This document shows positions 26,420 through 34,477 of a stretch of 64,000 nucleotides of DNA, one piece after another. How positions within the stretch are numbered: position 1 is the first letter of the stretch; every line of letters starts with the position of its first letter. The notes below the pieces were generated by a model that searched no databases, had not been told where the DNA came from, and saw only the letters and a list, made by a program, of their open reading frames with translations. The stretch covers positions 2,108,001-2,172,000 of the forward strand of contig NZ_JAFBBV010000001.1 of the NCBI RefSeq assembly GCF_016907365.1, read 5' to 3'. The position numbers and the translations under genes are program-made. The stretch is from Oerskovia paurometabola (GTDB taxonomy: Bacteria; Actinomycetota; Actinomycetes; Actinomycetales; Cellulomonadaceae).

Positions 26420-27334
26420 TCACCAGGCCTGTGCGATGAGCTCGGCGAACAGCTCGCCCTCGTCGACGTCGAGCCCTCGGGAGCGGAACCACGCGCACAT
26501 GGTCCGGCAGTCGCGCATCAGGAGGTCGGTGCCGTGGGGGTTCGCGACGAGGTCGAGGACCTGCGGCAGGTCGATGATCACGATGCGCTCGCCCTGGGCC
26601 AGCACGTTGTAGGGCGACAGGTCACCGTGCGCGTACCCGTGCGCGGCGAGGAGGCCCATGGCGTGCCGGAGCTGGTCCCAGTACGCCTCGACCGTGCCGG
26701 CGTCCGGTCGCACGCGGGCCAGGCGTGGCGCGGCGACCCGGCTCGCGGCAGACCCGTCGGCCTCGCCCGTGCTCGCGTGCTCCCCGACGAACTCCATGAG
26801 GATCTCGGTCCCGTCGATCTGGACCGGGTACGGGACGGGGGCCCCGGCGGACCACAGCATGGTCAGCGCCGCGAACTCGGCGTTGGCCCACTGCGCGGCC
26901 GCGGCCTCGCGCCCGTACGAGGACTTGCGCTCGATCGCGCGCCGGTCGCGCGAGCGCCGGACCTGGCGGCCCTCGACGTACGCGGAGTCGCGGTGGAAGG
27001 CGCGGTGCTCGGAGCTGCGGTAGCGCTTGGCGGCGAGCAGCGAGAACTGGTCGGGGTCGTCGGGCACGGCGCGCTCGAGCAGGAAGACGTCGGCCTCCTT
27101 GCCCGTCTTGAGGACGCCGAGGTCGGTGTCGATCGCGGCGTCGGCCGTCACGACCCAGCCGGGACGGGGCTCGGGGCCGCGCATGCCCTTCTCGACGCTG
27201 GACCACGTGGACCAGCGCTGGTCCGGGTCGAGGGCCGCGTCGAGGTCGTACGCGTCGATGCCGGAAGCGTCGAACGCGTCGTCGGGGACGCCGGTGTGGC
27301 GGGGGAGTGCGGGAAGGTCGATGTGCTCGTGCAC
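26420..27334 (-). CDS. RIO-family serine protein kinase
   Basis: A 304-aa atypical kinase of the RIO (RioB-like) family. Residues seen are the flexible ATP loop LKTGKEADVFLLE, the catalytic HGDLSPYNVLA and the metal-binding IIDLPQVLD, with an extended N-terminal region of about 70 residues. Eukaryotic RIO kinases act in ribosome maturation; the bacterial role is not settled. GTG at 27334 was chosen because GAGGAG lies 8 bases upstream and the protein then begins VHEHIDLPALP. An upstream ORF and alternative hairpins at 27341-27426 suggest translational control. Confidence 0.88.
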   Translation of the reverse strand: MHEHIDLPALPRHTGVPDDAFDASGIDAYDLDAALDPDQRWSTWSSVEKGMRGPEPRPGWVVTADAAIDTDLGVLKTGKEADVFLLERAVPDDPDQFSLLAAKRYRSSEHRAFHRDSAYVEGRQVRRSRDRRAIERKSSYGREAAAAQWANAEFAALTMLWSAGAPVPYPVQIDGTEILMEFVGEHASTGEADGSAASRVAAPRLARVRPDAGTVEAYWDQLRHAMGLLAAHGYAHGDLSPYNVLAQGERIVIIDLPQVLDLVANPHGTDLLMRDCRTMCAWFRSRGLDVDEGELFAELIAQAW

Positions 27335-27340
27335 GGGTGG

Positions 27341-27391
27341 GGCTCCTCGGGTGAGGTGAGGAGCCGGCGTCAGCGGCCGGGGCTCCTCGGG
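27341..27391 (-). promoter_or_regulatory. Alternative hairpins burying or freeing the RIO-kinase RBS
   Basis: Reading the minus strand, GAGGAGCC occurs twice: in the leader ORF (27388-27381) and at the kinase RBS (27348-27341). They lie within identical 13-base blocks, 27379-27391 and 27339-27351. Between them a single GGCTCCTC (27365-27358) is perfectly complementary to both. Pairing with the first copy leaves the RBS free; pairing with the second hides it. The structures are mutually exclusive. The geometry is seen; switching is inferred. Confidence 0.6.
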
Positions 27392-27426
27392 AAGGTGGAG
27401 GCGTGGGGAACGACGACGACGGTCAT
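27370..27426 (-). CDS. Upstream leader ORF of RIO kinase, MTVVVVPHASTFPRSPGR
   Basis: An 18-codon ORF with a strong RBS (GGAGAGG, 7 bases before the ATG at 27426) and stop 35 bases before the kinase GTG. Codons 2-6 are Thr followed by four Val. The first GAGGAGCC copy of the alternative hairpins lies in its codons 14-16, so a translating ribosome would prevent that pairing. Existence as a translated peptide is inferred from RBS quality and placement. Confidence 0.5.
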   Translation of the reverse strand: MTVVVVPHASTFPRSPGR

Positions 27427-27576
27427 CACGACACCTCTCCTTCTCGCAGCCCCAGGCTGCGCGCTCGCGCCGGACCTTCTCCGGCGGACGTGCCCACCCT
27501 CGCACCCGGCGGCGGGGGTGGGCAACGGAATTAACGACGCTCCCCGGCAGCGCTCCCCGGGAGCCGTCCGGGGGTG

Positions 27577-28386
27577 TCAGCCTCCGAACGAGGACACGAG
27601 CAGCGTGTACGTGCCGCTCGTGTCGAGGCCCATCTGGGTCAGCAGCGACCACACGACGCCCGCGACGGCGTACGCGGTGACCGGGATCAGGAAGAGCCAC
27701 TCGCGCACGGACCCGGCGTTGCCCAGGACGGGCAGCGCGAAGTTGCCGCCCGGGCGCCAGATGTCGTTGAGCACGTTGGTCCTGCGCACCCAGCGCGGCG
27801 CCTTGAACGTGATCGGCCACAGCAGCGGGCACCCGCCCGTGGTCATGACGTCGCCGACGATGTGGACCGTGACGCCGAGCCCGACCGCGACGGGGAGCCA
27901 GTTCCACTCCTCGGGGGCCAGGAGCGCGACGAGGATCGCGATCGTGATCGACCCGATCCACGGTCCGAGCTTGCCGCCGCGCGTGAGCTTGAGGGCCTTG
28001 AGCGCGAACGCGACGAGCAGGATCGCGACGACGCCCGCCCCGACAGCGACGGTCCCGAACGTGTCCGACTCGTACGTCACGAGACCCGCGAGCCACGCGA
28101 GCGCGGTGAAGACCGCGATCCCGAGGATCGAGTGCGTCCCGCGGCGGTGCCCGCCGGAGATGGTCTCGACCAGGTTGGCGACCCCCTCGGAGACGGGCGG
28201 CAGCGAGTGCGCGATGGTGCCCGAGTGGTGGTCGGCGTCGGGCAGCAGGGCCGCGCCGGCGCACACGATCGCGCCCGTGACGACGCCCACGTCCGAGACG
28301 GGGTAGATACCGAGCGTGTACGGGGCGGTCGAGGTGACCGCCACCCATGCGGCCGCGCCGCAGGCGGCGTGGTGGCCACCCATCAT
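27577..28386 (-). CDS. YdjM-like inner-membrane metal-dependent hydrolase family protein
   Basis: A polytopic membrane protein of about 269 aa in the YdjM/DUF457 family (annotated as LexA-regulated or metal-dependent hydrolase in other bacteria). It begins MMGGHHAACGAAAW, with LLPDADHHSGTIA and SGGHRRGTHSILGIAVF giving the conserved His/Asp pattern. Five or more TM helices follow, with HIVGDVMTTGGCPLLWPI near the end. Start ATG at 28386 (or the next ATG) is chosen because the conserved GGHH stretch then lies at the N-terminus. No LexA box was seen upstream. Enzymatic activity is unproven for the family. Confidence 0.82.
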   Translation of the reverse strand: MMGGHHAACGAAAWVAVTSTAPYTLGIYPVSDVGVVTGAIVCAGAALLPDADHHSGTIAHSLPPVSEGVANLVETISGGHRRGTHSILGIAVFTALAWLAGLVTYESDTFGTVAVGAGVVAILLVAFALKALKLTRGGKLGPWIGSITIAILVALLAPEEWNWLPVAVGLGVTVHIVGDVMTTGGCPLLWPITFKAPRWVRRTNVLNDIWRPGGNFALPVLGNAGSVREWLFLIPVTAYAVAGVVWSLLTQMGLDTSGTYTLLVSSFGG

Positions 28387-34195: not shown

Positions 34196-34215
34196 CGGTT
34201 CGCTGTCTCAACGAG

Positions 34216-34300
34216 TGTCCGGAGGGGGACTTGAACCCCCACGCCCGATAAAGGGCACTAGCACCTCAAGCTAGCGCGTCTGCCATTCCGCCACCCGGAC
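34216..34300 (-). tRNA. tRNA-Leu (anticodon GAG), copy 2
   Basis: An 85-base type II tRNA with acceptor GTCCGGG/TCCGGAC and discriminator A. The anticodon loop TTGAGGT is closed by CTAGC/GCTAG, giving anticodon GAG. A long variable arm (TGCCCTTTATCGGGCG) and T-loop GGTTCAAGTCC are present. CCA is not encoded. It reads CTC and CTT, the Leu codons of the leuS leader peptide. Confidence 0.96.
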
Positions 34301-34340
34301 GGGTGTCCTGCTGCCGGTGTCGCCACCGGGTCTCGCACAA

Positions 34341-34372
34341 CGAAGCGGACCTGGTTTCCCTGGTCCGCTTCG
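34341..34372 (-). terminator. Terminator-like hairpin after proximal tRNA-Leu copy
   Basis: Same hairpin as at 34164-34195, between the two tRNA copies. If it terminates efficiently, the distal copy needs its own promoter. Confidence 0.75.
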
Positions 34373-34392
34373 CGGTTCGCTGTCTCAACGAG

Positions 34393-34477
34393 TGTCCGGA
34401 GGGGGACTTGAACCCCCACGCCCGATAAAGGGCACTAGCACCTCAAGCTAGCGCGTCTGCCATTCCGCCACCCGGAC
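34393..34477 (-). tRNA. tRNA-Leu (anticodon GAG), copy 1
   Basis: Identical in all 85 bases to the copy at 34216-34300: same acceptor stem, GAG anticodon loop, long variable arm and T-loop, CCA not encoded. It is upstream in transcription order. Confidence 0.96.

Follow-up and report, generated by a model that had tools for sequence, protein, structure and literature searches.

The RIO kinase locus and its features

We analysed a window of 64,000 nt from the Oerskovia paurometabola genome (4.33 Mb, one contig), and all coordinates below are positions in this window. On the minus strand, a YdjM-like gene (28386-27577) is followed by a promoter-like element, an 18-codon open reading frame (ORF) and a gene for a RIO kinase. 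The features discussed here, listed in the direction of transcription, are as follows.

27496..27534, minus strand: WhiB7-type promoter, with TTAATT, a 3-nt step, -35 TTGCCC (27525-27520) and -10 GAGGGT (27501-27496)
27485-27469 and 27460-27446, minus strand: two 5'-UTR stem-loops, 5' of the leader Shine-Dalgarno (SD), read from the sequence
27437..27442, minus strand: leader SD AAGGAG
27370..27426, minus strand: leader ORF of 18 codons, MTVVVVPHASTFPRSPGR, ATG at 27426, TGA stop at 27372-27370
27379..27391, minus strand: block 1, CCCGAGGAGCCCC, with core GAGGAGCC at 27388-27381, a copy of the ribosome-binding site (RBS) within the leader ORF
27358..27365, minus strand: anti segment GGCTCCTC, which can form hairpin A with block 1 or hairpin B with block 2
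27339..27351, minus strand: block 2, CCCGAGGAGCCCC, which contains the kinase SD
26420..27334, minus strand: RIO kinase gene, 304 aa, GTG start at 27334, stop included

The kinase product matches Pfam PF01163 (RIO1; E 5e-29), and the closest solved structures are those of RIO3 and RIO1 kinases. A kinase start 5' of 27334 was considered and rejected: the frame is open far upstream, yet the start VHEH with an SD immediately before it recurs in the genus, and the GTG at 27334 was therefore retained. Each of the seven Oerskovia genomes, the host's included, has a single match to the kinase. Matches were found in 57 of 121 genomes of the family (G031 with a weak match only), and in 120 of 396 genomes of the order and 67 of 296 of the class, the latter two counts including weak matches of short length, probably to other kinases. 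Eukaryotic RIO kinases have a role in ribosome assembly (PMC3358306, PMC6501643). Among the matches listed for the open-access literature, we found no paper on the role of this actinobacterial RIO kinase, and none that connects a RIO kinase of bacteria with WhiB7 or with a leader ORF.

The preliminary description of this DNA had reported an 18-codon leader ORF with a strong RBS, and two identical 13-mers with one complementary segment between them; the coordinates and sequences of both hold. The kinase gene is thus preceded by a short leader ORF with its own SD, as an attenuator would require, and a second in-frame start, GTG at 27429, lies one codon 5' of the leader ATG. No Rfam family reaches its gathering score near the leader, where three weak hits are all far below it. 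In the whole window only two tRNAs match at gathering score; these are tandem minus-strand tRNA-Leu(gag) genes at 34215-34477 that have the same Rfam score.

A WhiB7-type promoter precedes the leader

The promoter-like element 5' of the leader (GTTAATTCCGTTGCCC-N18-GAGGGT) has an AT-rich element 3 nt before the -35 and a correctly spaced -10, the arrangement used to recognise members of the WhiB7 regulon. Its presence in front of the kinase gene goes beyond the preliminary reading. A scan of 27250-27650 with the generic sigma-70 consensus found no promoter. The host genome encodes a PF02467 protein (L144) with GVWGG and RGRGRP (WhiB domain and AT hook), motifs that we take to mark it as WhiB7. 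An AT-rich element situated 3 nt before the -35 is a feature of WblC/WhiB7 promoters (PMC7157823, PMC10727445), and the WblC element is described as GAAAWY at that position, followed by TANNNT and a transcription start 7–8 bp further downstream (PMC7157823). The kinase promoter resembles the WblC-dependent promoters of Streptomyces coelicolor in the placement of the AT-rich element, and its -10 deviates from TANNNT at the first base. In the main text of that paper (PMC7157823), the words "RIO" and "kinase" do not occur.

Searching both strands of the 4.33-Mb genome with TTAATTNNGTTG gave two matches, the kinase gene and whiB7, and the reversed-pattern control gave none. The longer pattern WWAAWYNNGTTG-N22-A-NNN-T returned the same two sites, and a narrower pattern fitted to the kinase promoter alone matched only that site in its own genome. 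As the patterns were written with both sites known, these matches indicate a rare word common to the two promoters and should not be read as a regulon of two members. Among relatives, the full promoter pattern lies 5' of the leader at 135 of 181 unique loci, compared with 0.55% of mononucleotide shuffles, and at 8 of 20 further class-level loci (none of L230-L238).

The element places the predicted mRNA start near 27488. A start inside 27341-27391, which the preliminary description had named as a finding that would speak against its model, is not suggested by the sequence. A promoter of the WhiB7 type suggests ribosome stresses as candidate inducers.

The leader ORF is conserved among relatives in two layouts

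Orthologous upstream regions were compared at 208 oriented loci, consisting of 30 from the family search, the best 80 of 547 confirmed, 18 of 30 from the order search and 80 more. The set includes some duplicates of one genome, L111-L122 were dropped as repeats, and further kinase matches from the family, order and class searches lie outside it. The preliminary description had asked for such an alignment to look for a conserved ORF, and an SD-led leader ORF of 12–52 codons was called at 192 of the 208 loci (duplicates counted; 181 unique). An SD-led start 45–160 nt upstream is present at 187 of the 192 loci, which were selected by the caller, compared with 4.6% of dinucleotide shuffles; with a stricter call (SD of at least 6 plus ATG), the values are 139 of these 192 caller-selected loci and 0.4% of dinucleotide shuffles. 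For 20 further class-level loci, a short ORF led by an SD was listed by the script in every case, that of L248 being judged unconvincing.

The 16 loci without a called leader were inspected by eye. In eight, a leader-like ORF is present behind a weaker SD (L027, L093, L139, L147, L175, L180, L212 and L222), four are seemingly leaderless (L020, L052, L189 and L201), two lack a leader and have a promoter of another kind (L198 and L200), and two are ambiguous (L078 and L224). The four seemingly leaderless loci, of which L020 and L052 are both Paraoerskovia marina, keep a WhiB7-like promoter and have no leader ORF; their kinase ATG lies just past the -10, so the mRNA is probably leaderless.

In Cellulosimicrobium-type loci, the leader is 60 nt long in 12 of 12 cases beside a spacer that ranges from 65 to 97 nt, and a fixed leader next to an indel-rich spacer is the pattern expected of a translated ORF. 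The leader is likewise constant at 57 nt in all seven Oerskovia genomes (spacer 35 or 37 nt) and at 72 nt in 11 Promicromonospora (spacer 33 or 32 nt), which says little because the spacer hardly varies there either. We found no purifying selection on the leader peptide: in the nine largest clusters, in-frame pN/pS was 0.82–1.25 and was not lower than in the other frames. Since there is no in-frame dip, it appears to be the ORF, not its peptide, that is kept. The sole trend at the peptide level is a loose T-V-L/P preference at codons 4–6.

Two layouts were distinguished. Type I leaders end before the kinase gene and occur in Oerskovia, Cellulosimicrobium, most Isoptericola, Promicromonospora and others. 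Type II leaders, found in Kribbella, Streptosporangium, Micromonospora, Nocardioides and others, extend past the kinase start in a different reading frame. Of 89 unique type II loci, which are not independent and from which the script excluded in-frame overlaps, 75 have 58–67 nt between the two starts and 77 share one relative frame. The 26 Nocardioides loci have start-to-start distances of 58, 61, 64, 67 or 76 nt, all the same modulo 3, apart from one called at 226 nt, probably from a wrong start. In a type II arrangement, a ribosome completing the leader would have to cross the kinase start, and one halted in the first codons would leave that start free.

A further layout was seen by eye in group g10 (L145, L148, L165, L166 and L167). 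There, codons CTGCCTCCC of the leader have their complement downstream in GGGAGGCAGG, a sequence that looks like another copy of the leader SD; the same layout is weaker in L158, L160, L162 and L168. The upstream sequence of L035, recorded as Sphaerisporangium cinnabarinum ATCC 31213, is that of G105, a member of group g8 together with Cellulosimicrobium genomes, so this record looks misnamed.

Repeated blocks could form alternative hairpins

Because the anti segment can pair with either copy of the 13-mer, the two hairpins would be mutually exclusive, one hiding and the other exposing the kinase RBS, as the preliminary description had proposed. The sequence, the folding energies (-18.0 kcal/mol for hairpin A and -14.1 kcal/mol for hairpin B) and covariation among relatives bear this out in silico. 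Of 20,000 shuffles of the 92-nt segment that preserved dinucleotides, 10 contained a repeat of at least 13 nt and 1 contained an 8-mer triple of the form X / reverse complement of X / X. Short complementarities are common in GC-rich, SD-rich DNA, and 8-mer triples within 100 nt occur at five other places in this GC-rich window. A triple sought everywhere is therefore not rare in itself, and the case rests on conservation; on sequence grounds, the triple is convincing through its location at the RBS and its recurrence in relatives.

The preliminary description would have been contradicted by orthologues lacking both the ORF and the second copy. Within the genus the opposite was found: all seven Oerskovia genomes keep the leader and have GAGGAGC at the same leader position, and five of them (all except L004 and L006) carry the exact 13-mer copy. 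Beyond the genus, within the host's own family, the triple recurs with different sequences. It reads GAGGAGCC/GGCTCCTC/GAGGAGCC (GGAGCC) in Oerskovia, GGAGCAC/GTGCTCC/GGAGCAC in Promicromonospora and GAGGAGC/GCTCCTC/GAGGAGC in L026 and L071 of the Isoptericola group, and some loci of the f19 group (L136 and L174) have GAGGCC/GGCCTCCG/CGGAG in equivalent places.

Covariation was evaluated in 38 loci from nine lineages of the host's own family, chosen by a fixed selection rule without flanks, by comparing the pairing of the native anti segment beyond the GGAGC core with that of anti segments permuted between lineages. The extension was 18.5 compared with 12.8 expected for hairpin A (p = 0.056) and 14.8 compared with 10.6 expected for hairpin B (p = 0.039); for A and B together, p = 0.015. 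Thus block duplication and covariation, which had been put forward as a check, were recovered in part: the triple recurs and the covariation is modest, with hairpin A alone at p = 0.056. The paired cores are nearly invariant within Oerskovia, and a joint pairing score reached p ≤ 0.05 in 9 of 28 leader clusters. Separately, in the genus alignment inspected by eye, the second 5'-UTR stem shows a compensatory change in L005, from GCAGCC/GGCTGC to GCGGCC/GGCCGC.

Predicted switching depends on ribosome position and on the 5' UTR

To model occupancy of the leader, a ribosome footprint of -15 to +15 was placed at each leader codon, with a local context of 18 nt before the leader and 12 nt of the kinase coding sequence. 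In this local fold, the kinase RBS is open without a ribosome, has an accessibility of 0.30–0.50 with the ribosome at codons 1–8 and of 0.00–0.06 at codons 9–16, and is accessible again at codons 17–18, because a ribosome near the leader stop covers the anti segment. Since the more stable local hairpin, A, exposes the RBS, translation of the leader's second half is predicted to repress the kinase. Local folds of L006 and L007 are similar, with the step at codon 9 or 10, as is that of L004 except that it is closed at codons 1–2. The difference between early and late positions beats each of 100 shuffles in L001, L004 and L007 (p = 0.01, the minimum possible).

With longer contexts the picture is less uniform. 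In a long fold (60 nt of 5' UTR and 35 nt of coding sequence), the RBS is closed when no ribosome is present and becomes accessible mainly with the ribosome at codons 7–9. It is hidden because 5'-UTR sequence takes block 1: in the ribosome-free long fold, UGGGGCU of the second 5'-UTR stem-loop pairs with the block 1 region. The long fold of L006 is nearly closed at codons 1–8 (0.00–0.18). With a 60/40-nt context, accessibility in an early stall exceeds that at termination in L001–L003, equals it in L004 and is lower in L005–L007.

Across 28 type I loci hand-picked for lineage spread, 12 reach p ≤ 0.05. The switch fold was not significantly different from shuffles in three Cellulosimicrobium-type loci, two f11 loci, the g10 locus L145 and several Isoptericola and Promicromonospora loci. 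A universal hairpin switch was rejected, as 16 of the 28 picked type I loci miss p ≤ 0.05 and mean accessibilities barely differ between states in 87 type I and 88 type II loci; for the 87 type I loci, mean RBS accessibility was 0.28 free, 0.31 early and 0.26 terminating. In these models, the predicted switch is clear locally, depends on folding of the 5' UTR and is lineage-specific. Of the earlier proposal that the leader ORF is placed to choose between the hairpins, the position-dependent opening of the RBS stands in local folds, and it blurs in long folds of some Oerskovia.

A proposed mechanism and its alternatives

A translational attenuator of the erm type, as put forward in the preliminary description, remains the best-supported reading in view of the leader ORF, the mutually exclusive hairpins, the predicted opening of the RBS, and recurrence with modest covariation. 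We consider it probable that the RIO kinase belongs to the WhiB7 regulon and that a translational attenuator, opened by an early stall in leader translation, controls it. Judging from the motif, WhiB7, induced by ribosome trouble, would drive transcription from 27534-27496. In the transcript, pairing of the anti segment GGCTCCTC with block 1 in the leader would form hairpin A and leave the kinase RBS free, and its pairing with the kinase RBS would form hairpin B and hide it. Ribosomes translating the second half of the leader would cover block 1, leaving hairpin B to form and repress the kinase. If leader translation were blocked, slow or stalled within about the first eight codons, block 1 would stay free, A would form and the kinase would be translated. 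We infer that the leader is translated and that ribosomes stall on it, with ribosome stress or antibiotics as the signal. In many relatives without the hairpins, an out-of-frame overlapping leader may exert control of the same sign through ribosome occlusion; in both layouts, leader translation is predicted to repress the kinase.

The alternative that survives best, which we regard as unlikely, is that the leader acts by translation alone, through occlusion, termination-reinitiation or coupling, and that the duplicated block in Oerskovia is a detail of this lineage and does no switching. The predicted leader ORF (192 of 208 loci) is kept in a much wider set of relatives than the putative hairpins, the 89 unique overlapping loci favour one spacing (75 of 89) and one frame (77 of 89), and the switch fold is not significant in the three Cellulosimicrobium-type and two f11 loci, all of which are consistent with it. 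Two results speak against it: Oerskovia, Promicromonospora and others have the triple in a sequence matched to their lineage, and in 12 of the 28 picked loci the predicted switch is larger than in shuffles.

That WhiB7 control is purely transcriptional, with the leader ORF and repeats having no regulatory role, seems improbable: the promoter motif, and the presence of such a promoter with no leader in Paraoerskovia and others, agree with this account, whereas an SD-led leader called at 192 of 208 loci and a leader length that stays fixed beside an indel-rich spacer in Cellulosimicrobium-type loci do not. A transcription attenuator (terminator/antiterminator) resembling the whiB7 leader is more improbable still, because no intrinsic-terminator-like site was found in 27250-27650 and the anti segment pairs with the RBS itself, even if the kinase and whiB7 promoters share a motif and the whiB7 leader of the same genome has, by eye, a uORF and a terminator-like hairpin.

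Comparison with known leader-controlled systems

The translational attenuator proposed here has counterparts with different targets. In ermC the layout has four segments, and here there are three, one of them an RBS copy that lies in the leader ORF. In ermB and ermC, a leader ORF is combined with alternative hairpins, and the position of the ribosome hides or exposes the downstream RBS (PMC12121999). The kinase locus shares with them the short leader ORF, the alternative hairpins and RBS exposure that would be set by the leader ribosome; it differs in its RIO kinase target and its WhiB7-type promoter. The erm systems are defined by a downstream ribosome-methylating resistance gene, and the gene downstream here encodes a RIO domain kinase.

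In the toiL-topAI system of Escherichia coli, a uORF senses several classes of ribosome-targeting antibiotics (PMC12121999). As in toiL, where stalling is proposed to unmask the SD, the uORF sequence here would belong to the structure that controls the downstream SD. The toiL ORF itself pairs with the RBS, however, whereas here a separate anti segment lies between, and the targets are unrelated. The kinase locus may therefore work like erm or toiL and yet is not an erm system, since its target is a kinase.

The leader of whiB7/wblC is a uORF transcription attenuator that acts via a Rho-independent terminator (PMC11550727 and PMC10727445). It resembles the kinase leader in being actinobacterial and uORF-led, in its WhiB7-type promoter, and in that halted translation of the uORF leads to expression, as proposed here for the kinase; the difference is the terminator, none having been found at the kinase leader (27250-27650).

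Implications for actinobacterial RIO kinases

More tentatively, we propose that the RIO kinase of Actinomycetota is a ribosome-stress protein behind a double gate, namely transcription by WhiB7 and a leader that would permit translation only while translation is impaired, with the second gate built in two interchangeable ways, as an overlapping leader or as an RBS-copy hairpin. With a WhiB7-type promoter and a putative translation-sensing leader in front of it, the kinase is predicted to be made when ribosomes are inhibited. If true, this would tie intrinsic antibiotic tolerance to a family of ribosome-associated kinases.
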